Of a stretch of DNA of 64,000 nt, positions 32,122 to 62,804 are shown piece by piece. Source of the stretch: Olleya sediminilitoris. Its GTDB lineage: Bacteria; Bacteroidota; Bacteroidia; Flavobacteriales; Flavobacteriaceae. Location of the stretch: the NCBI RefSeq assembly GCF_016785945.1, contig NZ_JAEMEF010000007.1:62001-126000 (forward strand). The letters run 5' to 3'. Below the pieces are notes generated by a model, which did no database searches, was not told where the DNA came from, and saw only the letters and a program-made list of their open reading frames with translations. How positions within the stretch are numbered: position 1 is the stretch's first letter; each line of letters starts with the position of its first letter. The translations under genes were made by a program, and so were the position numbers.

Positions 32122-34647
32122 CTACTTTTTAACCATTATCTTTTTAGAAATATTTCTTACTTCAGAGTTTAACTTAAGGATGTAAAATCCTGCAGCTAAT
32201 TCTGATGTACTAATTACACTAGAATTGTTAGATAACCTTCCTGCAAGTACTTGTTTTCCGTTTATGTCTATCATATAGTAATTAAGCGCTTCATCTTTTA
32301 ATAAATTAACTTTTACGTTTAATTGATTTACTACTGGATTAGGAAAGGTTTTTACATCTGTAGATAGTTGAGCTTCTATAACAGCGTTACCTTTTACCTG
32401 TCCTACAGACACATTACTATTTCTATCTGTTGAACCAACAACAATTACCATTAATGGACTTCCTACTTCATCTAAATCTGCACAAATTTGGTTATTTGCG
32501 ATTAAATCTAAAATATCAAAAGCTGTTGTTGTTCCTAAAGTAATAGCATTTAAATTAAAAGTCTCAGGATTATAAGCTAAAGTATGCACTTTATAAAAAC
32601 CTCCAACTTCAGGAATTGTTAGTTCTTGTGTGCTACTGTAACCCTCAATTACTAAGTCATCTCCTTTTGTTAATAAAGTACTTAATTGGTAACCATTAGG
32701 TAAAACTGCATCATTGTTTAGGTTTACAGTAACTGTTACAGAAATTCCTGGTGACACAATAGCTAAACCAGTTGATAAAGTAGAAGTTCCTGCTGAAGTT
32801 GCTTCGCATTCTAATACATCTACTAAAAAGAATGTAACTTCTTGTACATCACATAGTGTTGATGAAGCGTCATCTCCTGCAAATAATTGAGTTTCCACTT
32901 TAAAATTTCCAATACCTAAATCCCAACTAGTTTCAGTTGTTGGATAAGCATAAGGTAAAGTATTATCTGTAACAACAGTTGTTGCTCCAGTTTCTAAATT
33001 TGTTATCGTAGTTATAGTACTTTCAGAAGCACCTACAACTAATGCATCAATATAAAAATCTGAAGGTAAATCTGAAATATTATACTCGCCACCTTCAGTA
33101 ATTGTAACTGATTCTGATCCGTTTGAAAAAGCAAAAACCTTTAAATTACCACAAGGTGCTTCACAATTAATTGTGAATGTTACACAACTGTTAGCGCATT
33201 CAGTTCCGTTAGTATTATTCTCTGTATATATACTTGTACATAATTGGAAAGTACCACAACCGTGAGACCAAACTGAATTTGTTGCTCCAGGATATGTATA
33301 AGGCACAACGTTTTCAGTTTTGTTAAACACTTCTCCTGTATCAACATTTGTTAATGTAAAGTATGCGCTTTCAAGAGGTCCTGAAGTTAATAAGTTAATA
33401 TTAAAATCTGATGGAAGATTTTCTAAATCGTAACTTGATCCATCTACAATTGCAACTGTTGCGTCAGAAAAGTTAGAAAACTCGAATCCATCAATTGTTC
33501 CACAAGGATCTTCACAAGTAATTGTAAATGTTAGACATGCTGAATCACATTCTGTTCCATTTGCATAATTAGCTTGGTAAACACTCGAGCAGATTTGAAA
33601 CGTACCACAACCATGAGACCAAACCGAATTAGTGGCTCCAGGATAAGTATAAGGCACTACATTTTCAGTTTTATTAAAAACTTCACCTGTATCGACATTT
33701 GTTAAAGTAAAATATGCGCTTTCAAGAGGTCCGGAAGTTAACAAGTTAATATTAAAGTCTGCAGGAAGATTTTCTAAATCATAACTTGCTCCATCTACAA
33801 TTGTAATTGCAGCATCAGAGAAGTTAGAAAACTCAAATCCGTCTATTTGACCACAAACAGTATTGTTTATTGTAAAATAAACCACTTCTTTATCACACAT
33901 TGTGCTTTGACAGTAGTTATTTTCAAAAATCTTACCTATTAACTTAAAGTCACCTGTACCATAACTCCAAGCAGCATTACCACCTGGAATAGTGTATGGC
34001 AAATAATTTTCACCTACATTAAAAATTTGACCTGTTGTTAAGTTTTTTAGTCTTAAACTAGCACTTTCAGACTGACCATCTACCAATAAATCTACATAAA
34101 AATTATTTGGCAAAGCATCCAACTCATAAACACCATTATTTGTTATGGCAACGCTTTCGGTTCCGTTTGTAAATTGGTAACCTGTAATATCTCCACAAGT
34201 TTGAGCAGGAGCACATGAAATATTAAATCTAATAGTTTCACTATCACAATAACGTCCACAACTATTATATTTGTAAAGTTTTGCTTTAATTTCAAAATTT
34301 CCGCAACCATAATTCCAAGCACCATTTCCTCCAGGAAAAGTATATGGTAAATGATTTTCAGAAATAGTATATGATTGACCTGTATCTAAATTTCTTACAT
34401 AATACTTGGCACTTTGTGAGTAACCATTTACTAATAAATCAATATAAAAATTGTTTGGTAAATCATTAATATAATAAGATTGATTATAATTTATTGCTGT
34501 TGAAGTTGTTCCGTTAGAAAACTGAAAACCTGAAATAGAACCACAACGAGTGTCTTCTAAACCATAGGATTGAGATGAAAAAGCGAAAGCAAATAGCATT
34601 AATAACGCTTTAAAAACAAGCGTCTTTTTGGGTAGTTTTTTATACAT
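32122..34647 (-). CDS. T9SS-exported surface protein with five tandem Cys-rich repeats
   Basis: 841 residues. Signal peptide (LVFKALLMLFAFAFSSQSYG), then five tandem modules of about 112-117 residues starting near 35, 151, 265, 382 and 499. Each opens with CGxIxGFxFSNG-like sequence, carries a LPxxFYIDLLVxG core and a PYTxPG...W.xGxGxF block, and ends with a cysteine pair. Then comes a non-repetitive region (610-755) and a type A T9SS sorting domain (FPNPVVNQLNVKVNL ... ISKKIMVKK). Modules 3 and 4 are almost identical in protein sequence. The cysteines probably form intramodule disulfides outside the cell. I do not recognise a ligand; adhesion or polymer binding is plausible. It has its own promoter and terminator. 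Confidence 0.8.
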   Translation of the reverse strand: MYKKLPKKTLVFKALLMLFAFAFSSQSYGLEDTRCGSISGFQFSNGTTSTAINYNQSYYINDLPNNFYIDLLVNGYSQSAKYYVRNLDTGQSYTISENHLPYTFPGGNGAWNYGCGNFEIKAKLYKYNSCGRYCDSETIRFNISCAPAQTCGDITGYQFTNGTESVAITNNGVYELDALPNNFYVDLLVDGQSESASLRLKNLTTGQIFNVGENYLPYTIPGGNAAWSYGTGDFKLIGKIFENNYCQSTMCDKEVVYFTINNTVCGQIDGFEFSNFSDAAITIVDGASYDLENLPADFNINLLTSGPLESAYFTLTNVDTGEVFNKTENVVPYTYPGATNSVWSHGCGTFQICSSVYQANYANGTECDSACLTFTITCEDPCGTIDGFEFSNFSDATVAIVDGSSYDLENLPSDFNINLLTSGPLESAYFTLTNVDTGEVFNKTENVVPYTYPGATNSVWSHGCGTFQLCTSIYTENNTNGTECANSCVTFTINCEAPCGNLKVFAFSNGSESVTITEGGEYNISDLPSDFYIDALVVGASESTITTITNLETGATTVVTDNTLPYAYPTTETSWDLGIGNFKVETQLFAGDDASSTLCDVQEVTFFLVDVLECEATSAGTSTLSTGLAIVSPGISVTVTVNLNNDAVLPNGYQLSTLLTKGDDLVIEGYSSTQELTIPEVGGFYKVHTLAYNPETFNLNAITLGTTTAFDILDLIANNQICADLDEVGSPLMVIVVGSTDRNSNVSVGQVKGNAVIEAQLSTDVKTFPNPVVNQLNVKVNLLKDEALNYYMIDINGKQVLAGRLSNNSSVISTSELAAGFYILKLNSEVRNISKKIMVKK

Positions 34648-48372: not shown

Positions 48373-48972
48373 TTAATTATTGATTATATCTACTTCTGCA
48401 TTGGCATTAAACAAATAAACTTTACCTGTTTTAACCTCAACACACTCATGACGAGTACGTCGCTTTACTCCTTTTTTAAACACACGACCATTGTGTATTT
48501 TAAAGGTTTGATGCAAAGGTACTTCAAATATAAAACTTTTATTATTTGGAGCGTCCAATTGTTTTAAAGCTAAGGCGAGTTGCACATCTGTATCGCTAGA
48601 TGCCTTTGGGTTTTTAAAGTGTTTTGCTAAATGCGGAAGCAAGTTGTCTGGGAAAACATCAGGATTTATAAAAGGTAACATTAAATGCTGAAAGGTACGC
48701 TTCCACTCTGCTCCATGAGGTTTAATATGTCGTCCAAATTTAGAAAAAGCTTCTAAATGTGCTATTTCATGAATTAAAGTAATTAAAAAACGATACTTAT
48801 TTAAATTTCCATTAACAGTAATTTGATGTTTCCCATTTGGTAATCTTCTATAATCGCCATGTCTCGTTTTACGTTCTTTTTTAACTTTTACTACCAAATG
48901 GTCATGTGCTAAAAGTTGTAAAACTTTTGGAACTGCTGCTTCTGGAATGTAGTGAGAAATGGTGTTTTGCAT
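48373..48972 (-). CDS. SprT-like zinc metallopeptidase-like protein
   Basis: 199 residues from the ATG at 48972 (MQNTISHYIPEAAVPKVLQL). It has the zinc motif ITLIHEIAHLEAF (HEIAH) and a third ligand in GRHIKPHGAEWKRTFQHL. The C-terminal half carries VKRRTRHECVEVKTGKVYLF, the ribbon-like region of SprT relatives but with fewer cysteines. Related SprT/SPRTN proteins cleave DNA-crosslinked proteins; a role for this shorter form is inferred only. First gene of a minus-strand run with manC and the DUF389 gene. Its -7 box lies 5 bp from the ATG, which implies a leaderless mRNA. Confidence 0.82.
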   Translation of the reverse strand: MQNTISHYIPEAAVPKVLQLLAHDHLVVKVKKERKTRHGDYRRLPNGKHQITVNGNLNKYRFLITLIHEIAHLEAFSKFGRHIKPHGAEWKRTFQHLMLPFINPDVFPDNLLPHLAKHFKNPKASSDTDVQLALALKQLDAPNNKSFIFEVPLHQTFKIHNGRVFKKGVKRRTRHECVEVKTGKVYLFNANAEVDIINN

Positions 48973-48977
48973 TTCAA

Positions 48978-48985
48978 CAAAAATA
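48978..48985 (-). promoter_or_regulatory. -7 box (TATTTTTG) of the sprT-like gene, predicted leaderless
   Basis: Perfect TAnnTTTG with only 5 bp to the ATG at 48972. No TTG at -33. Confidence 0.45.
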
Positions 48986-49097
48986 ATGGATTTATGTAAA
49001 ATGAAATAATATTGACTATTGATTTTTAAATCTAAAAACGAGTCACCAATTAACAATACTTTATAAAAAGTATTTTTTGAATGTTGTATATTTAGCT

Positions 49098-49643
49098 ATG
49101 AAAGACTTAATACTAATAGCGACTATATTTATGACCTCAGCAACTGGATTAACAATAGATTTTGGAAAAGATAAAACTGGAGCATCTTGGCGAATAGTTA
49201 ATGATGGAGTAATGGGTGGATTATCTACCTCTGAAATAAATCTAAAAGATGACAGCCTATTGTTTACAGGAAATGTTAGCCTTGAAAACAATGGTGGTTT
49301 TGCTAGTGTACGCACTTTAATAGACGAAGGTGCTTTAAACAATTGTAAAATCATGATAATCCGCTACAAGAGTGATAATACCAATCGTAATTTTGGATTG
49401 TCTTTAAAAAGTAGTCAACAATATTACATACCTTATTACAAACATATTTTTAGTCCAAAAACTAAAGATTGGGAAACCATTGAAGTACCATTATCCGAAT
49501 TTAAACATTATAAAATTAGTGAGATAATTGGCAACAATATGCCTGCTGAGGATTTAAAAGACGTTTTTAATATTGCTTTAATTATTAGCGATAAAAAAGA
49601 AGGTGAATTTAACATTGAAATTGATTATATCAAGTTTATATAA
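49098..49643 (+). CDS. CIA30-family (NDUFAF1-like) domain protein, probably exported
   Basis: 181 residues from the ATG at 49098. A hydrophobic N-terminus (MKDLILIATIFMTSATGLTI) may be a signal sequence. The CIA30/galactose-binding-like beta-sandwich fills the rest: SWRIVNDGVMGGLSTSEINL (about residues 28-47), GFASVRTLIDEG, GLSLKSSQQYY, and the C-terminal IEIDYIKFI. In eukaryotes the domain is in a complex I assembly factor; in bacteria its role is unknown. The last 80 bp reappear downstream at 52240-52320 in a damaged form, beyond the alpha-amylase gene. Confidence 0.8.
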   Translation: MKDLILIATIFMTSATGLTIDFGKDKTGASWRIVNDGVMGGLSTSEINLKDDSLLFTGNVSLENNGGFASVRTLIDEGALNNCKIMIIRYKSDNTNRNFGLSLKSSQQYYIPYYKHIFSPKTKDWETIEVPLSEFKHYKISEIIGNNMPAEDLKDVFNIALIISDKKEGEFNIEIDYIKFI

Positions 49644-49644
49644 A
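49563..49644 (+). repeat. Direct repeat A: 3' end of the CIA30 gene (intact copy)
   Basis: 82 bp starting GTTTTTAATATTGCTTTAAT and ending TTTATATAAA, covering the last 27 codons and the stop of the CIA30 gene. It matches 52240-52320 with one single-base deletion and two substitutions. Confidence 0.9.
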
Positions 49645-49734
49645 TATCATTTTGCTAAAAGGTAAAACCAACCGAAATTTATAAAAAAAAAAAAAATGAA
49701 TCTCAGTTTATAAAATTTATACTATTTAAGTGAT

Positions 49735-49770
49735 AACAAAAAGAGCTACCTTTTAGGTAGCTCTTAATTT
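49735..49770 (-). terminator. Rho-independent terminator after the alpha-amylase gene
   Basis: Stem AAGAGCTACC / GGTAGCTCTT with loop TTTTA; on the minus strand a run of five T follows. It lies 20 bp past the amylase stop. Confidence 0.85.
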
Positions 49771-49789
49771 CTAAAAAAACAAATTTAAA

Positions 49790-51892
49790 TTACTCTAAAC
49801 TAATCTTTTTATTAATGATTTTACCGTTTACAGCAACTCTTAAGAAATAAAGTCCGTTAGCTAACTTTAAATCATCTCTATTAAATGTAATAGTATGCTT
49901 TCCTTTATTAAGTGTGTTAGAATACACATTAGTTGATACGCCTTTAAAATTTATAATTTTAACTGAAACTGTCCCCTTAGCGTCTTTGATATTTACATTA
50001 AAAAACACCTTATCTTTCAATGGATTAGGATATAATACAAAATCATTTACTGTAGATTTTTCATTAGTGCTTAATCGCATATCTGTCGGAGTACTGTGCC
50101 ATGCATTATCATAGTAATAAGGCATATTTGAGCACGTGCTTAAATTTACTGTTTGATTATTTCCGTTATAACTAAAAATAATATTTGAGCAATCTTGATC
50201 TATTGTTATAGTTTTGTAACCATTATTAGCCTCATTTAATTCTGTTCCAGGCCATTCTCCGCTAGTAGCTTCTTGATTATTATTCCATGTATAAACATGA
50301 GTATAATCTTTTACATAAATTTTGAAGCTCTCTAAAGTTGTATTTGGAGGAGAGGCATGCCATGAATTGTCATAATAGTAAGGCATGTTTGAACAAGTAA
50401 ATAAATCATCTGTTTGATTCCCTCCATTATTACTAAAAATAAGGTTTGAACAGTTTCCTATCACTGTTGCAGAAAACCAACCATTCCCTTCATTATTTAG
50501 TGTTGTTCCAGGCCAAACTCCATTAGTTGCATTTAAGTTATCATCCCAACTATAAATAGTAGCATAATCTTGTGTATAAACCTTAAAAGTACTTGTATCG
50601 TTATCATTATCTGTTGTACCGTCATTATTAGTCCAAACTGCATAATTATTTCCAGAAGCAATTAGAGTCCAATTAGATCCAGATGGAGACCAGTCATTAG
50701 GTCCTATTTTCATTGCAACATCATAATTATTTCCATTTACAATAGCTGCATAAAGACCGTTTTGGGCAGTATTAATTGTTACATTACTCTGACTATGTAT
50801 ACCTGCATTTTTTCGAATAGTAATTAAATCACTAATCTCTCCTTTTACCGCATTTCCCCAATCAAATAAATGTGGCCAATAAATACATGGTACACCAGGA
50901 TGTGTTAACAGGTAAGCATAAGTTTGTACAACATTGCCACTATTTAATACATTGTTTGGTGTATCATATCTTGGTGTGTCATGATTTTCAACAAACGTTG
51001 TATTGTTTCTAGGATCCCATCCTATTCCTCCAGAGGCTTCACCATTATTTGCTAAATAAGAATAATTGTTGTCTCTTATTACAGATTTCAAAGTAAAATA
51101 AGTTGGAAAATCAAAAGCAGTTGATCCAGTACCATCAATCCAATCTTGAATTACTTGCTTACTAGAGTTGTAATTTTCTCCAACCGAAAAAGTTGGGTTA
51201 GTAGCTCCATTATACAATGTATAATAATAATTATCAAAACCATGAACAAAATCGTATCGCCATCCTTTATAACCTATATTTTTTAGATTATTTAAAAAAT
51301 TGATAATACTGTTTTGAACATATGTTTTTGTATGATCAATATCTCTTGCTGCTTCATACGACGTTCCTGTATCATAACTACCTCTTGGGTTAGTATTAAA
51401 ATACTCTGGAACACTCCATACTTCATCATTAGAGGTAATAGCATCTGTTCCCCATTCTGGATTTGTAAAGTCTACATAATTGGTTGAACCTACTCGGTGA
51501 TTTATTACAATGTCTGCAATTGGTTCTATTCCTTTAGAATTTAGTGCATTTAATAAATCTAAATGAGCTTGTAAACTCCCATAATTATTTTCAAAATTAT
51601 TAAGTTCTCTTGGTAAATAACCCTCAAGTGAACCTGCATCACTTGGAGGTGGAAGCCATATCATATCGATACCTATATCTGATATTTCTTGGGACAAATT
51701 ATTAACAATATTATACCAGTTATTTGGATTATTTGCTGCAGATTCCCAATAGAAACCTTGAAGCATTACACGATCATCATTTTCCCGCTGTGCTGTTAAA
51801 AGAAAGCTGTGTAGAAAAGCAAAAATTAAGCAATACGTTTTAAGTGAAAAACGTCCTAATTTGAATGTTTTAAAATAAGTTTTGGTTGTCAT
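49790..51892 (-). CDS. Secreted GH13 alpha-amylase with two C-terminal starch-binding-like modules and T9SS signal
   Basis: Extracellular endo-acting alpha-amylase, 700 residues. Signal peptide (LKTYCLIFAFLHSFLLTAQ). The GH13 barrel (about 40-350) has region I DIVINH, region II GWRYDFVHG (nucleophile D214), region III VGEN (acid E239) and region IV FVENHDT (D305). The strands YAYLLTHPGVPCIYWPHLFD are like plant/archaeal-type GH13_6/7 enzymes. A small C-domain is followed by two tandem modules (about 433-510 and 521-600), each with YSWDD/YTWNN...WPGT...CSNLIFS...TCSNMPYYYD, resembling CBM26-type starch-binding modules. A type A sorting domain (YPNPLKDKVFFNV ... KISLE) follows. Stands alone, flanked by a direct repeat, so perhaps an insertion; substrate is starch or glycogen. 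Confidence 0.92.
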   Translation of the reverse strand: MTTKTYFKTFKLGRFSLKTYCLIFAFLHSFLLTAQRENDDRVMLQGFYWESAANNPNNWYNIVNNLSQEISDIGIDMIWLPPPSDAGSLEGYLPRELNNFENNYGSLQAHLDLLNALNSKGIEPIADIVINHRVGSTNYVDFTNPEWGTDAITSNDEVWSVPEYFNTNPRGSYDTGTSYEAARDIDHTKTYVQNSIINFLNNLKNIGYKGWRYDFVHGFDNYYYTLYNGATNPTFSVGENYNSSKQVIQDWIDGTGSTAFDFPTYFTLKSVIRDNNYSYLANNGEASGGIGWDPRNNTTFVENHDTPRYDTPNNVLNSGNVVQTYAYLLTHPGVPCIYWPHLFDWGNAVKGEISDLITIRKNAGIHSQSNVTINTAQNGLYAAIVNGNNYDVAMKIGPNDWSPSGSNWTLIASGNNYAVWTNNDGTTDNDNDTSTFKVYTQDYATIYSWDDNLNATNGVWPGTTLNNEGNGWFSATVIGNCSNLIFSNNGGNQTDDLFTCSNMPYYYDNSWHASPPNTTLESFKIYVKDYTHVYTWNNNQEATSGEWPGTELNEANNGYKTITIDQDCSNIIFSYNGNNQTVNLSTCSNMPYYYDNAWHSTPTDMRLSTNEKSTVNDFVLYPNPLKDKVFFNVNIKDAKGTVSVKIINFKGVSTNVYSNTLNKGKHTITFNRDDLKLANGLYFLRVAVNGKIINKKISLE

Positions 51893-52239
51893 ATTTTTAT
51901 TTTATTGGTTAATTATCAATAATATAGTAATTTTTCAACCCTAAATTTATTATTAAAACAACTACAACGTTTTCGAGTTAATAACTTTTATTAATTTAAC
52001 ATTTACACATAGAATATTGACGAATTTTACCAAAATATTGAGATAATCATAATTAATTAGTAAAATTCTGTTTATTCAGAAATATAATCGCGTTAATTAT
52101 CATTATTCTTATAATCCATAAAAACTGATTACATAATTAAACTAACAATACATAATTAGTTAATTTTAAAGTCCGAAAACAACTTTCAAGTACAAAAAAA
52201 CATGAAACATGTAAGGTTTTTTATGTGGCATTAAAAATT

Positions 52240-52320
52240 GTTTTTAATATTGCTTTAATTATTAGCGATAAAAAGAAGGTGAATTTAACATTGAAATTGA
52301 CTATATCAATTTTATATAAA
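52240..52320 (+). pseudogene. Direct repeat B: truncated remnant of the CIA30 gene 3' end
   Basis: 81 bp matching the last part of the CIA30 gene (49563-49644) except for one lost A in a run of six (frameshift) and two substitutions (GAT to GAC, AAG to AAT). Nothing of the 5' part is recognisable. Same strand and orientation as the intact gene. Confidence 0.88.
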
Positions 52321-52354
52321 AAAACGCTCTCAAAATATTGAGAGCATTTTTTTT
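52313..52354. terminator. Bidirectional terminator
   Basis: Stem GCTCTCAA / TTGAGAGC with loop AATA (52326-52345), A run before and nine T after. Ends the barrel-protein gene on the minus strand and, in the ancestral arrangement, probably the CIA30 gene. Confidence 0.88.
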
Positions 52355-52374
52355 ATGAAGGGAATATGTTTGTG

Positions 52375-52968
52375 TTAAAAAGCAAATCCAACCGAGAATT
52401 GCCAAACTCTGTTTTTAGGTTCTCCTTCATCATATACATCTCCTAATCCTAAATGGTAACGTGCGCCAAGAGTGACACCAGATTCTGTTTTAAAACCTGC
52501 CCCAAAATTAACTCCGTAATCAAAATTATTTGGTTCAAACTCTTGTGAGGTATCAAATAAATTAAAGTTTGCATCATAAGTTTCTTTATGAGAAATGGCA
52601 TAACCTATTTGCGGTCCAGCTTCTAAATAAAACGTGCTGACAGGATATAATTTTAGTAATAAAGGTAAATTAATATAATTAAGTTTTTGAGTGAATATAC
52701 CTGCATCTGTTTCAATTTCATAACCTTGTTGTGAATACATTACTTCAATTTGTATGGCAGCAAACTCGGTAAAATAAGATTCTCCATACAAACCAACATG
52801 AAAACCACTACGTTGACCAGTTTCTGCTTCTCCATCATATTGTACTGAAGCTAAATTATAACCTGCTTTTAATCCTCCGTTTGATTTACTTTTCAAGTCA
52901 TTATCTTGTGCTTGACCTATAAATAATGCACTAAAAAATAGTGCTATTGCTACATATTGCTTTTTCAT
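52375..52968 (-). CDS. Outer membrane beta-barrel protein (porin/PorT-like family)
   Basis: 197 residues: signal peptide (VAIALFFSALFIGQAQ), then an eight-stranded barrel of the OmpA/PorT-like type, with GGLKAGYNLASVQYDGEAET, YINLPLLLKLYPVSTFYLEA, GPQIGYAIS, and the terminal strand RVWQFSVGFAF ending in Phe. The LPLLLKLYP..TFYLEAGPQIGY pattern is typical of Bacteroidota PorT/porin_family proteins of unknown role. It is 43 bp downstream of the metalloprotease lipoprotein gene on the same strand, so the two are likely one transcript. Confidence 0.85.
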   Translation of the reverse strand: MKKQYVAIALFFSALFIGQAQDNDLKSKSNGGLKAGYNLASVQYDGEAETGQRSGFHVGLYGESYFTEFAAIQIEVMYSQQGYEIETDAGIFTQKLNYINLPLLLKLYPVSTFYLEAGPQIGYAISHKETYDANFNLFDTSQEFEPNNFDYGVNFGAGFKTESGVTLGARYHLGLGDVYDEGEPKNRVWQFSVGFAF

Positions 52969-53011
52969 AATATTAAATTTTAAGTTATTATTTGTAAATG
53001 ATAATTAGTCA

Positions 53012-53779
53012 TTATTTTCCACCATTGGCTTGCAAGTCTGCAATACATTGTGCATCTAATTGTGGTGCATTGCCTCCAGAAATCATATCCATAACATTAC
53101 TTCCAGATTCGGCTTGCCAATACATTAAGCATGACTCGACATCACAATGTTTAGGATGATCTAAATCTTCGTGATCGGACTGCAAATCTGAGCCTAAATT
53201 TGTTAGTCCAAGTATATGTCCAAACTCATGCGTTATTACAGTTGTTTCTAAAATTGGTCGTGTATTACTTAGGGTACCAGACGTTAACTCTTGAATAGTT
53301 TCTTGATATATCACAAATGATGTATTGCGATAGGCTGTACCTAATACAACACCTTCATCTGTATTACTTGCAGATTCTCCATCTGCAAAAAATACCCAAA
53401 CTGTTATTTGGTTATCATTGTTAAATAAGGTACGATTGGCATCTTCTATTGCTATAATTTCTTGATTAGTGTAAGGGGATTGATTTGTTGTTGAAATAGC
53501 TCTTTTTTGTACCGTAATTCCGTCAGGTTTAAATGTTCTGTCTTCTAAAAAAGACACAAAATTATTAACTGCTGTTTGTGATGGTTCAAAACCCTCAACA
53601 TATACTAACTCGATTACTAAACTGGTAAAAGTATTGTCTGATAATAAATCGTTTGCAGAGGTACCAACTGCTAATTGATTGGCTTGTTCTGGTGTGTCAA
53701 ACGTTTCGGTTTGAGCATCATCACTGCTACAAGACCAGATCAGCCCCAAAACCGCAACTAAAAACATTACTTTTTTCAT
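53012..53779 (-). CDS. Zinc metalloprotease lipoprotein (matrixin-like)
   Basis: 255 residues. The lipoprotein signal ends LGLIWSC (Cys near residue 17). The zinc motif ITHEFGHILGLTNLGS (about residues 186-201) gives HExxHxxG and a further Ser/Asp region, and SCLMYWQAESGSNVMDMI resembles the Met-turn of metzincins. The N-terminal 170 residues include FTSLVIELVYVEGFEPSQTA and are specific to this group. It is expected on the outer-membrane surface or in the periplasm. Followed by the barrel-protein gene (43 bp) and preceded by the repeat lipoprotein gene. Target unknown. Confidence 0.85.
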   Translation of the reverse strand: MKKVMFLVAVLGLIWSCSSDDAQTETFDTPEQANQLAVGTSANDLLSDNTFTSLVIELVYVEGFEPSQTAVNNFVSFLEDRTFKPDGITVQKRAISTTNQSPYTNQEIIAIEDANRTLFNNDNQITVWVFFADGESASNTDEGVVLGTAYRNTSFVIYQETIQELTSGTLSNTRPILETTVITHEFGHILGLTNLGSDLQSDHEDLDHPKHCDVESCLMYWQAESGSNVMDMISGGNAPQLDAQCIADLQANGGK

Positions 53780-53814
53780 CTTACTATTTTTTCTTTTTAC
53801 TTATTTTAAAATTA

Positions 53815-53844
53815 CTGCCTCTAAGTTTAGAGACAGCAAAGTTA
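53815..53844 (-). promoter_or_regulatory. -7 box and hairpin in front of the metalloprotease gene
   Basis: Perfect TAACTTTG on the minus strand (53837-53844) without a -33 TTG. Directly after it lies the inverted repeat CTGCCTCTAA-GT-TTAGAGACAG (53815-53836), one mismatch. The hairpin could be a terminator of the upstream gene or a leader structure. Confidence 0.4.
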
Positions 53845-53874
53845 AACAAACTAATAATCACTTAATTTACTTAT

Positions 53875-54933
53875 CTATATTTGTGTTAACACTAAGGTTA
53901 GTGCTGCATTGGTTGTACTTTGTAATGATATTGATGTACTACTATAATTTGTAACAACCCAATTTTGATTTAAAATATTAAACGTTGTGTTATTACTAAA
54001 CGTTAGATTTACGTGTACTTCTGTTTGTGATGTTACTTCGTATGTACCTTGAACATCTTGTACTGTTGTATTAACAACATTTTCAGCTACAACTGATAAA
54101 TCATTGGCAAAATCAATTGTGAATTCTGCAAAGTCTACAGCTGTATCAACTCCTGCTTCAATAATAGACTGCACTTCAAAAACACCATCTACTAAAATCA
54201 TTTCAACCTCATCCGCATCATTTTGAGCTTGCTCTTCGATTGATTCTATACCTAAACAATCAGAGATTTCCGCTTGTAATTGTGCGTCACTATTAATAGA
54301 TATGGTTTGAGATGTATCTCCTTCAACCGTTGCTGTAATTGGATAGTTAACCGAAAATAACTGATCGTCTCCCATACTGTTTATGTACGTATATAATTGT
54401 TGTTCGGTTTCAACAACAACACTTCCTGTTTGTTCAAAATCTAAACTGTAAGTCAATATTGTAATTGGAAAGTTAAAGTCAATACAAGAAATAGCGTCTT
54501 CACCAGCGTCTTCTAACGTTTCACAAACATTCATAATTTCGTCATAATCAGACTGGCTAGCTATAACAACTTCAGTATAATTACTTAATGTTACTGCAAA
54601 CGGGAATTGTAATACTACTGTGTCATTATCGTTATTAAATTGAGCTAAAATATCAATAACTTGTTGGTAATCTGACTGACTAATAATACTTACCTGAGTC
54701 CCATTAACAGTTGCTGTAACTGGCAATATAATAGAAGAACAAGATACGCCATCTAAAAAGTCATCAAATGATCCATCATAAGCAGAAGCACGCTCAAGGT
54801 TACTTGCTGTTTGTGAGTTAGCTGTGTTTGTATTTGGATTGTCTCCATTTTCATTATCAATTTCATCTTGACAAGATGTAAATGAAAAGATTGCTAATAG
54901 ACAAAGTGCTGTAATTAATTTTAAGTTTTTCAT
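53875..54933 (-). CDS. Lipoprotein with about four internal repeats, hypothetical
   Basis: 352 residues. The lipoprotein signal ends FSFTSC (Cys near 21). A 40-residue Asn/Thr/Ala-rich linker precedes about four related units, each starting with a Pro-containing strand. They are ILPVTATVNGTQVSIISQSD (about 69-88), FPFAVTLSNYTEVVIASQSD, FNFPITILTYSLDFEQTGSV and VNYPITATVEGDTSQTISIN, each followed by an acidic helix (YQQVIDIL, YDEIMNVCE, LYTYINSM, LQAEISDC). The C-terminal 100 residues form a separate beta-rich domain (FSNNTTFNILNQNWVVTNYS). No family recognised. Probably anchored at the outer membrane, upstream of the metalloprotease and barrel genes. Confidence 0.6.
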   Translation of the reverse strand: MKNLKLITALCLLAIFSFTSCQDEIDNENGDNPNTNTANSQTASNLERASAYDGSFDDFLDGVSCSSIILPVTATVNGTQVSIISQSDYQQVIDILAQFNNDNDTVVLQFPFAVTLSNYTEVVIASQSDYDEIMNVCETLEDAGEDAISCIDFNFPITILTYSLDFEQTGSVVVETEQQLYTYINSMGDDQLFSVNYPITATVEGDTSQTISINSDAQLQAEISDCLGIESIEEQAQNDADEVEMILVDGVFEVQSIIEAGVDTAVDFAEFTIDFANDLSVVAENVVNTTVQDVQGTYEVTSQTEVHVNLTFSNNTTFNILNQNWVVTNYSSTSISLQSTTNAALTLVLTQI

Positions 54934-55034
54934 AATTTTTAATGGTTTGTAAATTTAATTTTTCTTTTTGTTAATTGTAGTTTAATACTTTTTGATTTTT
55001 CTTTTTCAAAGCTATTTTTTCGCCTTTCTATAGG

Positions 55035-55063
55035 TAAGACAACTAATTTTTATTTTACCCTAC
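55035..55063 (+). promoter_or_regulatory. Bipartite motif, copy 1 (ECF cassette)
   Basis: TAAGACAAC, 10 bp, TTTACCCTAC; 219 bp upstream of the sigma factor start. Same halves and spacing as copies 2 and 3. Confidence 0.6.
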
Positions 55064-55202
55064 CCTAAAATTTTAATTAATTGATTTATTGTGTAAATTA
55101 TAGTTGCAAAGCTTGATATTAGTACTACTGTTAGTATGACTTCTATTATTGTACTAACTTTTTCGGTATTCATATTTTTATATCTTTGGGCTAATATGTA
55201 CT

Positions 55203-55231
55203 TAAGACAACCCAAAGTTTTTTTACCCTAC
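55203..55231 (+). promoter_or_regulatory. Bipartite motif, copy 2 (ECF cassette)
   Basis: TAAGACAAC, 10 bp, TTTACCCTAC; 51 bp upstream of the sigma factor ATG. Positioned where an autoregulated promoter would lie. Confidence 0.65.
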
Positions 55232-55281
55232 TTTTGGTTTCAATTATTTTTAATTATTGTCTTTAATACTATAAATGATAT

Positions 55282-55797
55282 ATGACAGACAGCCAAAACA
55301 ACCTTTGTGAGGACCAGTTTTTTAGCGACTTTTATTTAAAGCACGTGCAAAAAGCTAGCAACTTTGCTTATTATAAATGTGGTGACAATGCTAAAGCTTT
55401 AGATTTAGTACAAGATGCGTTTTCTAAGATTTGGGAACATTGTGCTAAAATTGAATTTAGTAAAGCCAAAACCTATTTATTTACCTCCATTAATAATATG
55501 TTTTTAAATACTATAAAGCACAATAAAGTAGTCATGGATTATGCAAAAGCTGCTCCATATATAGATAGAGATAATCAAAGTCCTGAATATTTATTAGAGG
55601 AAGAAGAATTTAAAACCAAGTTACAACAAGCCATTGCTTTATTAACAGACGGTCAGCGCGAAGTCTTTTTATTAAATAGAATTGACGGAAAAAAATATCG
55701 TGAAATAGCAGAACTACTTGGTATATCACAAAAAGCAGTAGAAAAACGAATGTCTGGTGCCTTAAAAACATTAAAGCAGCACATAAAAAATATTTAA
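55282..55797 (+). CDS. ECF-type RNA polymerase sigma-70 factor
   Basis: 171-residue extracytoplasmic-function sigma factor of the FecI-like, Bacteroidota type. Region 2 carries FAYYKCGDNAKALDLVQDAF and SKIWEHC (about residues 27-55) and region 4 carries LTDGQREVFLLNRIDGKKYR followed by EIAELLGISQKAVEKRM (about 125-160). No region 1 or 3. Followed 52 bp later by the FecR gene, then a TonB receptor: a complete sigma/anti-sigma/receptor cassette. Two copies of the bipartite motif precede it, so it probably controls its own operon. Confidence 0.94.
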   Translation: MTDSQNNLCEDQFFSDFYLKHVQKASNFAYYKCGDNAKALDLVQDAFSKIWEHCAKIEFSKAKTYLFTSINNMFLNTIKHNKVVMDYAKAAPYIDRDNQSPEYLLEEEEFKTKLQQAIALLTDGQREVFLLNRIDGKKYREIAELLGISQKAVEKRMSGALKTLKQHIKNI

Positions 55798-55800
55798 TAA

Positions 55801-55829
55801 GTAGGGTAAAACTAGACTTAATTGTCTTA
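55801..55829 (-). promoter_or_regulatory. Bipartite motif, copy 3, inverted, between sigma and anti-sigma genes
   Basis: Read on the minus strand: TAAGACAAT, 10 bp, TTTACCCTAC. It fills most of the 52-bp gap before fecR. Identical spacing to copies 1 and 2 but pointing back towards the sigma gene. Confidence 0.6.
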
Positions 55830-55849
55830 AGATTGAAGGACTTATACCA

Positions 55850-56764
55850 ATGAAAAAAGAAAACGACATATTAAAATGGTTTGATGACCAATTAACCAAA
55901 CCAGAACTTGATGCTTTAAAACAGTCTGAAGATTTTAAAACTTTAGAAAAAATTAAGCATTATAGCTCACAAATGGAGGCTCCAAAAGTAGATGCACAAC
56001 AAGCGTTAAATGCTTTTAAGCAACGTCCATTAACTAAAACCGAACCTAAAGTTATTAGCTTAAACTTTAAAACCTTTTTTAAGGTAGCAGCAATGCTTAT
56101 TTTTATGCTTGGCATCTCATACTTTGCCTTTTTTAATAACACCAAAAATTTTGAAACAACAGTTGCCCAAACTCAAACATTTAAATTACCTGATAACTCT
56201 GAGGTAATATTAAATGCACAATCTAGCTTATCTTATAACTCAAAAACTTGGGATGATAAACGCGATTTAACATTAGATGGTGAAGCCTTTTTTAAAGTTG
56301 AAAAAGGACAAAAATTTACCGTTAATACTTCTGCAGGTTTAGTACAAGTTTTAGGTACACAGTTTAATGTTAAGGAGCGTGACAACTATTTTGAAGTCGT
56401 ATGTTTTGAAGGATTGGTTAGTGTAACACATAATAACAAAACTATTAAACTATCAAAAGGTAAAGGTTTTAAGGTTGTTAATGATAATATAGAATTAATA
56501 GATAACACAAAAGCAACATCTCCTAGTTGGCTTAAAGCCGAAAGTACTTTTACTAACATTAGCTTACAACAAGTCATTGCAGAAGTACAACGTCAATATG
56601 ATGTAACTATTAATGCTGATGCTATTGACACTACACAATTATTTACAGGTACCTTTACACACAGCAACTTAAATACTGCATTACAAGCCATAACAATACC
56701 TTTAAAATTAAGTTATAAAATTAATAATACTACTGTTACCTTATATAAATATGAAGGGCAATAA
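55850..56764 (+). CDS. FecR-family anti-sigma factor
   Basis: 304-residue inner-membrane regulator. Short cytoplasmic N-terminus (KENDILKWFDDQLTKPELDA), one transmembrane helix (FFKVAAMLIFMLGISYFAFF, about residues 75-94), and a periplasmic FecR domain (about 105-215, LPDNSEVILNAQSSLSYNSK, LDGEAFFKVEKGQKFTVNTS, VQVLGTQFNVKERDNYFEVV). A C-terminal STN-like domain follows (FTNISLQQVIAEVQRQYDVT). Expected to hold the sigma factor until the TonB receptor signals. The 3' end overlaps the receptor gene by 14 bp. Confidence 0.93.
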   Translation: MKKENDILKWFDDQLTKPELDALKQSEDFKTLEKIKHYSSQMEAPKVDAQQALNAFKQRPLTKTEPKVISLNFKTFFKVAAMLIFMLGISYFAFFNNTKNFETTVAQTQTFKLPDNSEVILNAQSSLSYNSKTWDDKRDLTLDGEAFFKVEKGQKFTVNTSAGLVQVLGTQFNVKERDNYFEVVCFEGLVSVTHNNKTIKLSKGKGFKVVNDNIELIDNTKATSPSWLKAESTFTNISLQQVIAEVQRQYDVTINADAIDTTQLFTGTFTHSNLNTALQAITIPLKLSYKINNTTVTLYKYEGQ

Positions 56765-59288
56765 CTGGCTAACCTACTGTTTAATGTTTTGGATTGTTAT
56801 TAGTTTTGGTCAAACTAATAGCTTGCCTTTAGCTGATTACTTAATAAGTATTCAAGAGCAATTTGATGTAAAATTTAGTTATGCTGTAGACGATGTTGCT
56901 AACATCAACATACCTCAACCGGAAAGGGAATTAAATTTACAACAAACGTTACAACACTTAAACGCTAATACCTTACTAAATTTTAAAACAATAGATAGTC
57001 GGTATATTACCGTTTCTGTGTTAGAAAAAACAATTTCTATTTGTGGTACTTTAGTTTCAAAAGAAACCAATGAAGCGCTGATTGGCGCTTCAGTTATTAT
57101 TGATAATACGTATCAAGGTACAAGCACAAATTATAATGGTGAATTTAACTTAACCGAAATTCCGCTTAAAGCGACACTTTCTATTTCTTATTTAGGTTAT
57201 CAAACGTTAAAAATTTCTGCTAAAACATTATTTAACAATCAACAATCTTGTCCAACAATTGCACTTACAGAGGACAACCAAATGTTAACCGAAGTTTTAA
57301 TTACTAAATACTTAACTACAGGTTTGCAAAAATTTATAGATGGTAGTATTGTGTTAAACACAGAAGAATTCGGGAATTTACCAGGCTTAATCGAACCTGA
57401 TATTTTACAGTCCATACAAGCTTTACCAGGCGTTGAAAGCGTTAACGAAAGTATTGCCAACATTAATGTAAGAGGAGGAACAAATGACCAAAATTTAATC
57501 CTTTGGGATGGTATAAAAATGTATCATTCTGGTCACTTTTTTGGGTTAATATCTGCTTATAACCCAAACTTAACTAACAAAGTTATTGTGACTAAAAACG
57601 GAACCAGCAGTCAATACAGTGACGGTGTTTCAAGTACCATTAGCATGTATACTAAAGATAAAATTGAAGATACTTTTTCTGGAGGAGCTGGTGTAAATTT
57701 AATTAGTGCAGATGCTTTTTTAGAAATTCCTGTTAGTAAAAAACTAGCATTACATATTTCAGGAAGACGTTCTATCACTGATGTGATTAGCACACCTACT
57801 TATGATAATTATTTTGAAAGAAGTTTTCAGGATAGTGATATAAATATCAATTCTAATATTGAAAACAGCACAACTTCTTCTGATTTTGTCTTTTATGATT
57901 TTACTGCAAAACTACTTTTTGACTTAAACAAAAAACATCGTTTTAGAGCTAATATTATTGGTATTAATAACAATTTAGATTATGCCGAAACTATTACTGA
58001 TAGCGATAATACAACCACGTCAAAAACCAGTAATTTAGCTCAAGACAATTTAGGTTATGGTGGACATTGGAAAGCACAATGGACAAAAAACTTTAGCACA
58101 GACGTATCTGGTAACTACTCTAGATATACAGTAGATGCTTCAGATTTAAGAGTCCAAACAGAGCAACGCTTAACACAAGCTAATGAAGTATTAGAAACCA
58201 GTATACAGGTTAAAACCAACTATAGTTTTACTCCGTTTTTAAATTTTTTAAATGGTTATCAGTTTAACGAGATTGGTATATTAAATGAAACTACTGTAAC
58301 TGCCCCTTCTTATTCACGTACAAAAAAAGATGTTCTGTTAAACCATGCATTGTTTACACAAATAGAATACCATAAAGACAATACCTTTTTAAGGATTGGA
58401 CTACGCGGAAATTATTTTCAGAAATTTGATAAGTTATTAATAGAACCTCGTATTACTGCAAGACAAAAACTATCTAATCAATGGGCTTTAAAATTAGAAG
58501 GAGAATTTAAAAATCAGTCTGCAACACAAATTGTAGATTTTCAGGATGATTTTTTAGGCGTTGAAAATAGACGCTGGATATTAGCAGACAATAATACCAT
58601 ACCAATATCTACTAGTAAACAAGCATCATTTGGTGTTGATTATAGTAAACATAATTTAAATATTGATATTAATGGATTTTACAAAACGGTTGATGGGATT
58701 ACAGCTAGCAATCAAGGTTTTTATAATAATTTTCAATATCTGAGTGCCACAGGAAGTTACACTGCAAAAGGCATAGAGTTTTTAGCAAATAAAACTACTG
58801 ATAAATTTAGCACATGGTTAAGTTACACTTATAGTATTAACAATTATACTTTTGAAAGCTTTACACCTAGTGTTTTCCCTAATAATGTAGACATTAGACA
58901 CTCTATCTCTTTGGCTATAAATTATTCTATAATAAAAAACTTAGAATTATCATTAGGTGGTATTTGGCATTCTGGACAACCATACACAAAACCTCTTGAA
59001 GCTAACCCAACAATTGAAATTAACAACAATTATTATGTCAATTATGACCAACCCAATATCCAAAATGTAGACGATTTTTTACGTTTAGATGCCTCTTTAG
59101 GTTATACCTATGATTTTAATAACACAACTAATATTAGTCTAAAAGCAGGTGTACGTAACTTAAGTAATGAAGACAATGTAATTAATAGATATTATCAAGT
59201 AGATCCTGAGGATAGCAACAATACTATTGAGGTAAACAACCTGTCTTTAGGCCTAACGCCAAACGTAAGTCTACGCGTTAATTTTTAA
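56751..59288 (+). CDS. FecA-like TonB-dependent receptor with STN and carboxypeptidase-like domains
   Basis: 845 residues. Signal peptide (LMFWIVISFGQ), STN signalling domain (about 20-90, SIQEQFDVKFSYAVDDVANI), carboxypeptidase-regulatory-like beta domain (about 95-180), plug (about 185-310, LPGVESVNESIANINVRGG), and a barrel ending SLRVNF. STN plus FecR plus ECF sigma defines a trans-envelope signalling receptor. It is not a SusC (no SusC signature, no SusD partner). Ligand unknown; many Bacteroidota members sense glycans or host or prey components. Translationally coupled to fecR. Confidence 0.92.
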   Translation: MKGNNWLTYCLMFWIVISFGQTNSLPLADYLISIQEQFDVKFSYAVDDVANINIPQPERELNLQQTLQHLNANTLLNFKTIDSRYITVSVLEKTISICGTLVSKETNEALIGASVIIDNTYQGTSTNYNGEFNLTEIPLKATLSISYLGYQTLKISAKTLFNNQQSCPTIALTEDNQMLTEVLITKYLTTGLQKFIDGSIVLNTEEFGNLPGLIEPDILQSIQALPGVESVNESIANINVRGGTNDQNLILWDGIKMYHSGHFFGLISAYNPNLTNKVIVTKNGTSSQYSDGVSSTISMYTKDKIEDTFSGGAGVNLISADAFLEIPVSKKLALHISGRRSITDVISTPTYDNYFERSFQDSDININSNIENSTTSSDFVFYDFTAKLLFDLNKKHRFRANIIGINNNLDYAETITDSDNTTTSKTSNLAQDNLGYGGHWKAQWTKNFSTDVSGNYSRYTVDASDLRVQTEQRLTQANEVLETSIQVKTNYSFTPFLNFLNGYQFNEIGILNETTVTAPSYSRTKKDVLLNHALFTQIEYHKDNTFLRIGLRGNYFQKFDKLLIEPRITARQKLSNQWALKLEGEFKNQSATQIVDFQDDFLGVENRRWILADNNTIPISTSKQASFGVDYSKHNLNIDINGFYKTVDGITASNQGFYNNFQYLSATGSYTAKGIEFLANKTTDKFSTWLSYTYSINNYTFESFTPSVFPNNVDIRHSISLAINYSIIKNLELSLGGIWHSGQPYTKPLEANPTIEINNNYYVNYDQPNIQNVDDFLRLDASLGYTYDFNNTTNISLKAGVRNLSNEDNVINRYYQVDPEDSNNTIEVNNLSLGLTPNVSLRVNF

Positions 59289-59401
59289 TACTATTTACCA
59301 AATATCTTTATTTAATAAAAGAAACAAACCAACAACTGTATTTCAATAAGTTACAACAAACAAACCAAAAAACACCTATAGCATTTAAAAATAAATAATG
59401 T

Positions 59402-59409
59402 TATGTTTG
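59402..59409 (+). promoter_or_regulatory. -7 box (TATGTTTG) upstream of the effector-like gene
   Basis: Perfect TAnnTTTG 45 bp before the ATG at 59455. No TTG at the expected distance. Confidence 0.4.
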
Positions 59410-59454
59410 TATACCGAATGATTTAAATTGTTTTACTAAATAACTTATTATACA

Positions 59455-60525
59455 ATGTTAAATGAAAAATTAAAAGCATTACAAATAGTACTACAGCAAG
59501 AAGTAGACTTTGCTTGGCAATGTAAAATGGGAACATCTGTATACAATCAAAACAACCGCAGTTTTGGTAGTTATCTAGAGTCGTCTTTAAACGCACATAA
59601 CAAAGAAATTTCTCAAATTTTAGACGATATTGCTCGAGAACAAACTCAAAACCAAGAGCCTCCTAATTTTAATAATTATATTAGGTATTCTACTAGCTCA
59701 ATGACACACAAAGAAGTCTTTGTTGGTGACAAGTGGATATTGGTACCAAATACGGCATGTGTAGATTTTAGAACAACCACTTTAGGTGGTAGTAGAGCTT
59801 TTACTGTAACTGTAAGTAATGGTAGCGATTATGCTACGTTTACCTCAACCGAAAGTTTACAATCTTACCAACAAAACCAACAACTTTTAGAAGCTGATCC
59901 AATACATTTAGAACTACAAAATGATTATGTGTCTAAAGAAGAATATGATTGGATGTTATTAGCTTCTCAAGTTTACGGAACAACTAAAAAAAACATTAGT
60001 GGTTTAGGTGATCTTGCAGAATTGTACAGCAGAACACCAAAGGAATTTAAAAGACATTATGCTTACAAGATTTCAAAAGTTGCAAAAAGCGTAGGCAAAC
60101 CAGCAAAAGCAGGTAAAATATTTCATGGAGCTGAAAAGGTTATGAAAAAAGCAGGAAAAGTAGCAAAAGTTGGACCTTATCTATCTGCAGGTACAATTAT
60201 ATATGAAGTTGGTGATGCCTATATTAATGATACAGAAATTAAACCACACACTTACGTTGACGGAACCCTTTTAGTGGTAGGTATAGCTGCAACAGCAGTT
60301 GGTGCTCCTGCAGTAGTTGTTGGTTTAGCTATATATGGTATTTTAGATTATGCTTTTAATATTAGCGAAGGAATTGATAATACTTTTGGAAGTGATTCTG
60401 ATCTTTGGAACAACAAACCTATAAAGCATTTTCCTAAAAAAACAACTCCAATATTTAATGACGTAAAAATTGACAACACCTATGTTGCTCCTAACATAAA
60501 ACTACCTCCAAATTTTAAAAATTAA
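59455..60525 (+). CDS. Effector-like protein with C-terminal hydrophobic hairpin, hypothetical
   Basis: 356 residues, not recognised. No signal peptide. N-terminal part (1-170) is mixed, with charged helices (LQQEVDFAWQCKMGTSVYNQ, LNAHNKEISQILDDIAREQT) and a beta segment (VFVGDKWILVPNTACVDFRT). A basic Lys/Ala/Gly-rich stretch (about 205-240, AKSVGKPAKAGKIFHGAEKV) leads to two hydrophobic segments, PYLSAGTIIYEVGDAYI and LLVVGIAATAVGAPAVVVGL with AIYGILDYAF (about 241-301). It ends ISEGIDNTFG plus a polar tail. The basic region followed by a Gly/Ala/Val-rich hairpin recalls C-terminal regions of polymorphic toxin-like proteins. The next gene starts within its stop codon. A pore-forming or membrane-acting effector is a possibility, not a conclusion. 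Confidence 0.5.
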   Translation: MLNEKLKALQIVLQQEVDFAWQCKMGTSVYNQNNRSFGSYLESSLNAHNKEISQILDDIAREQTQNQEPPNFNNYIRYSTSSMTHKEVFVGDKWILVPNTACVDFRTTTLGGSRAFTVTVSNGSDYATFTSTESLQSYQQNQQLLEADPIHLELQNDYVSKEEYDWMLLASQVYGTTKKNISGLGDLAELYSRTPKEFKRHYAYKISKVAKSVGKPAKAGKIFHGAEKVMKKAGKVAKVGPYLSAGTIIYEVGDAYINDTEIKPHTYVDGTLLVVGIAATAVGAPAVVVGLAIYGILDYAFNISEGIDNTFGSDSDLWNNKPIKHFPKKTTPIFNDVKIDNTYVAPNIKLPPNFKN

Positions 60526-61019: not shown

Positions 61020-62804
61020 CTACATACGCTCTGGCACGTCAATTCCTAATAGGTTAAAAGCATTTTTAATAGTATTAGCTACAGCTTGAGATAACTGTAC
61101 TCTAAATACAATTTCATTTTGTGTTTCTGCACCTAATATTGATACGTTTTGGTAAAAACTATTGAAAGCTTTTACTAAATCATAAGTATAATTAGCTATT
61201 AAAGCAGGACTGTGGTTATTAGCTGCAAGTTGTATTACTTCTGGAAACAACTGTAATTGTTTAATTAAGTCTCGTTCTTTATCTTCTAAAGCAACATCAC
61301 TAGACTTAAGTGTTACACTAGTATCTTCATTAGCTTTGCGTAAAATAGATTGTATTCTAGCATAAGTATATTGTATAAAAGGACCTGTATTACCTTGAAA
61401 GTCTATAGACTCTTTTGGGTCAAACAAAATACGTTTTTTAGGATCTACTTTTAGTATATAATATTTTAAAGCGCCTAAACCTATTGTTTTATATAGTTCT
61501 GCTTTTTCCTGATCTGTATAACCATCTAATTTGCCTAAATCTTCAGATATGGTTTGAGCTGTATCAGCCATTTCAACAATTAAATCATCTGCATCAACAA
61601 CAGTACCTTCTCTACTCTTCATTTTACCTGAAGGTAAATCTACCATTCCGTAGCTTAAATGAAATAAGTTTTTAGCCCAATCAAATCCAAGTTTTTTAAT
61701 AATTAAAAACAATACTTGAAAATGGTATTCTTGCTCATTACCAACAGTATAAACCATACCTCCAACATCAGGATAATCTTTTACACGTTGTATAGCTGTA
61801 CCAATATCTTGAGTCATATAAACTGCTGTCCCATCAGAACGAAGCACTATTTTCTCGTCAAGACCATCATCTGTCAAATCACACCAAACAGATCCATCTT
61901 CTTTTTTAAAGAATACACCAGATTTTAAACCTTCTGCAATAAACTCTTTACCTAAAAGATACGTTTGACTTTCATAGTATAAGTTATCAAAATCAACACC
62001 AAGGTTTTTGTAAGTCGTATTAAAACCATCATAAACCCAACCATTCATTGTTTCCCAAAGGGCAACTACTTCTTTATCTCCTGCTTCCCATTTTTGAAGC
62101 ATTTGCTGAGCTTCAGTTAAAATAGGTGCTTCCTTTTTAGCATCCTCTTCTGTTTTTCCTTTGGCTACTAAAGCTGCTATTTCTTTTTTATATTCTTGAT
62201 CAAATTTGACATAGTAATTACCTACTAATTTATCTCCTTTTAATCCTGTAGACTCTGGTGTTTCATTGTTTCCAAAACGCTTCCAAGCCAACATACTTTT
62301 ACAAATATGTATACCTCTATCATTAATAATTTGCGTTTTGTAAACTTTTTTACCTGAAGCTTTCAAAATTTCAGAAACACTATAACCCAATAAGTTATTT
62401 CTAATATGTCCTAAGTGTAAGGGTTTGTTTGTATTAGGTGAAGAGTATTCAACCATAACAGCTTTATTTTCCGCGGAAGCGTCAACAAAACCATAATTTA
62501 CATTTTGTTTTATAGTATTGAAAAAATCCACAAAATAGAAAGCTGAAATTTCAAGATTTAAAAACCCTTTTACGACATTAAAAGCCTCAACTTGCTCTAC
62601 ATTTTGCACTAAATACTCACCAATAGCTTGACCAATTTGGACTGGATTACCTTTTACAACACGTAACATAGGAAACACGACTACTGTAATATCTCCAGCA
62701 AATTCTTTTCTAGTTGCTTGAAACTCGACCGTTTCTAAATTAGCATTATAAATGGTATTAACCGCTTGTTTAATGTGTTGCTCTAATGTGTTTTGAAGAC
62801 TCAT
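61020..62804 (-). CDS. argS: Arginine--tRNA ligase
   Basis: Class I aminoacyl-tRNA synthetase, cytoplasmic, 594 residues. Motifs: PNTNKPLHLGHIRNNLLGYS (HIGH equivalent HLGH, near residue 132), YHFQVLFLIIKKLGF (substrate region), GKMKSREGTVVDADDLI (KMSKS region), and a C-terminal anticodon-binding domain ending FNLLGIDVPERM. Full length for the family. Transcribed alone from a promoter with TATATTTG box. Confidence 0.96.
   Translation of the reverse strand: MSLQNTLEQHIKQAVNTIYNANLETVEFQATRKEFAGDITVVVFPMLRVVKGNPVQIGQAIGEYLVQNVEQVEAFNVVKGFLNLEISAFYFVDFFNTIKQNVNYGFVDASAENKAVMVEYSSPNTNKPLHLGHIRNNLLGYSVSEILKASGKKVYKTQIINDRGIHICKSMLAWKRFGNNETPESTGLKGDKLVGNYYVKFDQEYKKEIAALVAKGKTEEDAKKEAPILTEAQQMLQKWEAGDKEVVALWETMNGWVYDGFNTTYKNLGVDFDNLYYESQTYLLGKEFIAEGLKSGVFFKKEDGSVWCDLTDDGLDEKIVLRSDGTAVYMTQDIGTAIQRVKDYPDVGGMVYTVGNEQEYHFQVLFLIIKKLGFDWAKNLFHLSYGMVDLPSGKMKSREGTVVDADDLIVEMADTAQTISEDLGKLDGYTDQEKAELYKTIGLGALKYYILKVDPKKRILFDPKESIDFQGNTGPFIQYTYARIQSILRKANEDTSVTLKSSDVALEDKERDLIKQLQLFPEVIQLAANNHSPALIANYTYDLVKAFNSFYQNVSILGAETQNEIVFRVQLSQAVANTIKNAFNLLGIDVPERM

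Follow-up and report, generated by a model that had tools for sequence, protein, structure and literature searches.

How does a single gene come to lie between two resident neighbours, with a piece of one of them repeated on its far side? This question is raised by a locus in a 64,000-nucleotide stretch of the genome of Olleya sediminilitoris (hereafter the window; the whole genome comprises 3.4 Mb in 37 contigs), where a predicted alpha-amylase gene stands between two convergent genes, one encoding a CIA30-family protein and the other an outer-membrane beta-barrel protein (OMP). The reading that we favour, and hold to be probable, is that the amylase was gained as a one-gene cassette and that the CIA30-OMP junction was duplicated along with it, both neighbours remaining intact.

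The repeated CIA30 end and the gene that it flanks

The CIA30-family gene (49101-49643, plus strand; Pfam CIA30, E 3.8e-31), which is the source of the repeat, is intact, and an alternative in-frame TTG start is possible at 49077. Its closest named matches come from Olleya aquimaris, O. marilimosa, an Olleya MAG and O. namhaensis; three of these four are genomes G001, G002 and G003 of our genus set, in which eight of the nine genomes other than the host carry an ortholog. On the left, the 82-bp repeat is intact (49563-49644, plus strand) and runs one base beyond the CIA30 stop at 49643. The right copy of this 3′ end (52240-52320, plus strand) aligns to it with 79 identities, two mismatches and one gap in a run of A, and this single gap, which reflects the deletion of one A, leaves the right copy frameshifted. 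When the alignment is extended to 49554-49644 and 52231-52320, it covers 91 columns at 93.4% identity. A whole-genome search with the repeat gives two strong matches (E 4.9e-58 and 1.9e-32) and no third copy, the third-ranked match reaching only 0.002, and the remainder of the CIA30 gene has no second copy within the window. A convergent terminator hairpin (52326-52345, recorded without strand) is retained beside the right copy and is missing after the left one.

The initial annotation had described this repeat, its single deletion and two substitutions, a frameshifted downstream copy followed by a terminator and an otherwise unrepeated CIA30 gene (here, within the window); on realignment its coordinates proved exact to the base, and the other details were borne out. 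It had also stated that a repeat present at many unrelated places in the genome would count against its reading, and the whole-genome search shows no such spread. Its statement that the amylase lies exactly between the copies was right about the position and wrong about the exactness, as very AT-rich spacers of 92 bp (18.5% GC) and 250 bp (about 21% GC) intervene between the cassette and the repeat.

The six-A run that is shortened in the right copy is kept by six of nine relatives whose CIA30 ends were compared, and the same fraction keeps the lysine codon that is altered there. The TTTATATAA ending, in turn, is common to both copies and present in none of these nine CIA30 ends. Because most of these relatives keep the A-run and the lysine codon, and because this ending is private to the two copies, the right copy most likely derives from the host lineage's own CIA30 gene and decayed afterwards.

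The gene between the copies (49790-51892, minus strand) encodes a probably secreted GH13 alpha-amylase of 700 aa according to Pfam. Its PF00128 score of 48.8 bits, against a curated cut-off of 22, indicates a GH13 catalytic domain, and the other predicted domains are Alpha-amyl_C2, CBM26 (two starch-binding stretches) and Por_Secre_tail. No other ORF of more than 70 aa exists in the slot between the CIA30 and OMP genes. The likely transferred cassette is delimited by the DNA similarity (77%) to the nearest amylase relative, in genome G170, which extends over 49735-51989 (minus strand) and spans the terminator, the gene and the operator only, ending at these two positions; the amylase terminator hairpin (49741-49765, minus strand) lies within this common DNA. 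Loose gapped alignments of the regions upstream and downstream of the gene extended over long stretches, and whatever they align beyond the operator and terminator was discounted as noise. Between the operator and the right repeat copy, the AT-rich stretch 51990-52239 (no strand assigned) matches nothing strongly, the repeat itself apart, either in the rest of the genome or in the loci retrieved from relatives.

Two further repeats were seen in the window. Within the amylase gene, the two repeats of the CBM26-coding part (50097-50580) are 70% identical in DNA, which indicates an internal duplication. An imperfect tandem-like direct repeat (32985-33856; 76%, offset of about 348 bp) lies inside the gene at 32122-34647, which encodes an 841-aa Por-tail protein with no other Pfam domain at E 1e-5.

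A probable second scar at the opposite edge

The OMP gene (52375-52968, minus strand; OMP_b-brl_2, Pfam E 3e-24) is also intact, and has orthologs at 78-83% in seven of the nine other genus genomes. To the left of the cassette, a stretch of 36 bp (49644-49679, minus strand) matches positions 52364-52400 with 29 identities, seven mismatches and one gap (37 columns, 78%), corresponding to 11 noncoding bases and the final 26 bases of the OMP gene. It begins at the first base past the CIA30 stop, in the expected order and orientation, and is a probable decayed remnant of the OMP 3′ end with its noncoding tail. This remnant beyond the CIA30 end, which the initial annotation did not contain, would probably constitute a second scar. 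As an OMP end lies at the left and a CIA30 end at the right, the amylase is probably bordered on either side by fragments of one convergent CIA30-OMP junction. Fourteen consecutive A (49683-49696) occur near the left edge of the cassette, between the OMP-like stretch and the amylase terminator.

So short a match, 37 columns at 78% in an AT-rich context, invites the alternative that the similarity is due to chance and that the CIA30 end alone was duplicated. Its local score of 32 arose by chance in 0.16% of 20,000 double shuffles and in 0.03% when only one side was shuffled; other set-ups gave 0.1% and, in the less favourable tests, 0.65% with longer stretches (0.0065) and 0.67% with the host's own OMP end against the whole slot (0.0067), placing the chance of such a match at 0.0003-0.007 depending on the test. 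Elsewhere in the window, 7 out of 12,572 stretches scored at least 32; among AT-rich controls the figure was 3 in 1,750, a point in favour of chance. A genome-wide search with 49644-49735 likewise favours it, the OMP end being absent among the 40 matches listed; because this genome-wide rank gives no support, the case for a remnant rests on position and order. Decay is moreover unequal, with 2 mismatches in 81 positions of the CIA30 fragment versus 7 in 36 of the OMP fragment (Fisher p 0.0036), a poor fit to one event followed by neutral decay, which predicts similar values; the OMP fragment may be older, may come from a diverged donor or may be a chance match. Against chance stand the start of the stretch right after the CIA30 stop, its order and orientation, the inclusion of the noncoding tail, and its specificity, as scores of only 15-20 are obtained when OMP ends from seven other genomes are aligned to 49644-49679. 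The same test on the slots of six relatives also speaks against chance, since it returned no OMP-end fragment below 0.05 (0.08-0.95). On balance, we regard a chance similarity as rather unlikely.

Probable gain of the amylase and its predicted regulation

No ortholog of the amylase was found in the rest of the genus set, nine genomes of which G007 is 75% complete; the best matches there are an amylase at 35% in two genomes and C-terminal matches in three. In a family search over 397 genomes, drawn from a larger group, 17 genomes including the host match the amylase at E <= 1e-60. The nearest relatives, at 61-79%, occur in five other genomes (G170, G226, G019, G128 and G249), and in the protein tree the amylase pairs with G170a with a support of 1.000. 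The amylases of G170 and G226 share a different neighbourhood, between peptidyl-prolyl isomerase-like and NUDIX-like genes (by eye), and when the loci of the five amylase-bearing relatives were searched by tblastn with 13 window proteins, the amylase was the sole match. G170 has two tandem amylase genes of the same family, of 704 and 604 aa (L200 6358-10627), which are a possible source of shuffled copies.

The absence from the genus, the patchy distribution in the family and the separate neighbourhood in G170 and G226 agree with the earlier proposal of a gain in the host lineage, and horizontal acquisition of the amylase as a one-gene cassette appears well supported by these comparisons; we infer transfer instead of repeated loss. 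Of the two checks that the initial annotation had suggested, the phylogeny of the amylase came out in favour of a gain, and the composition gave no foreign signal, GC being 31.3% in the gene versus 31.1% in the window and codon use being ordinary. No recent donor is seen, as the nearest relative is merely 77% identical in DNA, and a search for a closer donor in the genus of that relative returned a match in one of three genomes, the one already known. Carriage by a plasmid or phage was considered and rejected, as the five plasmid records that match all do so at less than 60% identity and no phage record matches.

Upstream of the gene, the cassette carries a LacI-type operator-like site (51961-51979, minus strand; ACTACAACGTTTTCGAGTT on the plus strand), whose core is also conserved ahead of the amylase genes in G170 and G226. 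When at most two mismatches are allowed, the host genome contains eight such sites, the amylase's own included, against 17 for a reversed control pattern. The number of sites by itself is thus not enriched, and the evidence lies in their locations. Four of the eight are at alpha-glucan genes: one at the amylase; one in the lacI-susC gap, where the neighbours are a regulator of LacI type and a SusC-type receptor, in a locus that also holds SusD, GH65 and a transporter; one at a second amylase; and one upstream of a GH31 enzyme (alpha-glucosidase) that adjoins a branching-enzyme-like gene (by eye). The other four fall within or beside unrelated ORFs. The second alpha-amylase of the host (Alpha-amy_C_pro type; L233 9373-10743), likewise preceded by an operator-like site of this kind, has no further starch gene beside it, by eye, among the ORFs listed. 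Because the operator matches sites at the maltodextrin locus, the second amylase and the alpha-glucosidase, the cassette probably entered an existing LacI-type maltodextrin regulon, and a resident LacI-type protein is the likely controller of the acquired amylase, a prediction made from sequence.

The proposed insertion site, its possible routes and known systems

The slot into which the cassette would have entered varies widely within the genus. Measured from the CIA30 stop to the OMP stop, it is 2,731 bp long in the host, 1,140 in G001, 862 in G002, 870 in G004, 4,229 in G005, 4,265 in G006 and 1,492 in G008. A fasciclin-type gene occupies it in four relatives (a Pfam check covers the G002 protein only), and the slots of G005 and G006 contain regulator-, symporter- and dehydrogenase-like genes (by eye). 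In G003 and G007, where no OMP ortholog was found (G007 being 75% complete), other ORFs come after CIA30 (in G007 one of them is 525 aa long) and precede an argS-like gene (by eye); in G009, where CIA30 was not found, OMP adjoins an SprT-like gene. The nine relatives thus comprise six with other slot genes, two with CIA30 in which OMP was not found and one with OMP in which CIA30 was not found, and a bare CIA30-OMP junction occurs in none of them. In an unrooted tree of eight neighbouring proteins, built with missing data, the host groups with G003, G005 and G006 (support 0.993).

In the host, the block from OMP to a TonB-dependent receptor, with the next gene (52375-60525), separates CIA30 from argS (61020-62804). 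This block is absent between CIA30 and the argS-like gene (named by eye) in L012/L199 (G003), L013 and L011 (G007), which makes the CIA30-adjacent region variable on a larger scale.

A search for a second CIA30 end in seven slots (those between CIA30 and OMP in six relatives, together with the SprT-OMP gap of G009) found none above chance (p 0.13-0.60). The initial annotation had predicted that relatives without the amylase would show a single copy of the repeat, as they do in these seven slots, and CIA30 directly convergent with the barrel gene, as none of the nine does. Its central claim, that the amylase arrived between two copies of one junction, consequently stands in part: the gain and the two-sided fragments agree with it, and the relatives with a bare junction that it predicted did not appear.

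We propose that an alpha-amylase cassette, consisting of the gene with its own LacI-type operator and its own terminator, would have come from a different lineage of Flavobacteriaceae and entered the junction at which the CIA30 and OMP genes converge. Its entry would have duplicated this junction: to the left, the whole CIA30 gene would remain with part of the OMP end, and to the right, part of the CIA30 end with the terminator and the whole OMP gene. Both fragments would stem from this one event, and the junction pieces, having no function, would then have decayed. Both resident genes would have escaped damage because each side retains one full gene.

Several observations bear on the route. 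In agreement with the initial annotation, which saw no transposase at the locus, domain scans of 34 proteins, from the 50 window ORFs that reach 140 aa, showed neither an integrase nor a transposase, and a transposon was rejected on this ground and on the lack of any slot ORF above 70 aa except the amylase. None of the ten inverted-repeat pairs listed joins the cassette ends, and a tRNA target was discarded, as no tRNA was found in the window and 48900-53100 gives no Rfam match. Direct repeats of resident sequence, as flank homologous (Campbell or transformation-type) integration, are present on both sides, the OMP-like left fragment being the weaker of the two. Ku was found in none of the ten genus genomes, with a control search positive in B. 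subtilis. As neither integrase or transposase nor Ku was found, our best guess is a RecA-type integration, by a single crossover or with one homologous and one illegitimate end, and Ku-free end joining ranks second; we infer the RecA-type route, no donor molecule with the junction having been seen, and hold it tentatively, at slightly less than an even chance.

End joining in general, in which a break at the junction would be joined to a foreign fragment and its overlapping ends filled to give a long target duplication, should yield two-sided junction fragments with no homology in the incoming DNA. As Ku was not found in the genus, its classical form is unlikely, a Ku-free form is possible, and the whole explanation seems to us unlikely, although less so than the others. 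Site-specific integration would turn the locus into an island at the CIA30 3′ end that has since lost its integrase, with the repeat as attachment core and the gene end restored. The confirmed repeat and an intact CIA30 gene with a displaced 3′ end, the usual signature of islands, fit such an origin, but the slot holds no integrase-sized ORF, the scanned neighbours show no integrase domain, 82 bp is long for an attachment core, and an OMP-like remnant past the CIA30 end is not expected; we consider this the least probable of the alternatives. Slightly less improbable is a long residence of the amylase in this slot followed by its loss from the other species, the CIA30 fragment being a later, unrelated local copy. 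The ordinary composition and codon use of the gene, the frequent turnover of slot genes and the unequal decay of the two fragments would agree with old residence, while the lack of orthologs in all nine other genus genomes, the common neighbourhood of the related genes elsewhere in G170 and G226, and the fragments of one junction on both sides argue against it.

If the gain with junction duplication is correct, the locus would connect the horizontal acquisition of an extracellular enzyme with an insertion scar that can still be seen and with a ready-made regulatory site, illustrating how one gene could enter a resident polysaccharide regulon with no mobile element and no damage to its neighbours. 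More speculatively, and we think improbably, single genes bearing operator and terminator would move between Flavobacteriaceae as plug-in units, captured integrase-free with duplication of the junction, the CIA30 slot being a hotspot; such a gene would come immediately under a resident regulator, with both neighbours surviving.

Among literature titles and abstract openings, no description of this locus was found, and it is best placed by comparison. Genomic islands at gene 3′ ends have direct-repeat attachment sites, and share with our locus an intact gene end and a displaced 3′ copy at the far side; unlike them, the locus shows no integrase, one gene, a longer repeat and an OMP-like remnant opposite. 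In merodiploids made by transformation, a foreign cassette can sit between the copies, and the duplications are large, the duplicated length at our locus being about 0.2 kb at most. The duplication of chromosome segments during transformation is described in PMC3784515. Another close system is homology-facilitated illegitimate recombination (PMC3240628), from which our locus differs in that no donor-side homology could be identified and resident sequence ends up duplicated. The enzyme itself resembles the Flavobacteriaceae GH13 amylases with CBM26 and a Por (type IX) tail, five of which are related to it at 61-79% (the domains being those of the window protein only), and its gene is here solitary and at a different genomic place from those of G170 and G226. 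The gain of the amylase appears to be an ordinary gene gain by a mechanism of known type and not a new mechanism.
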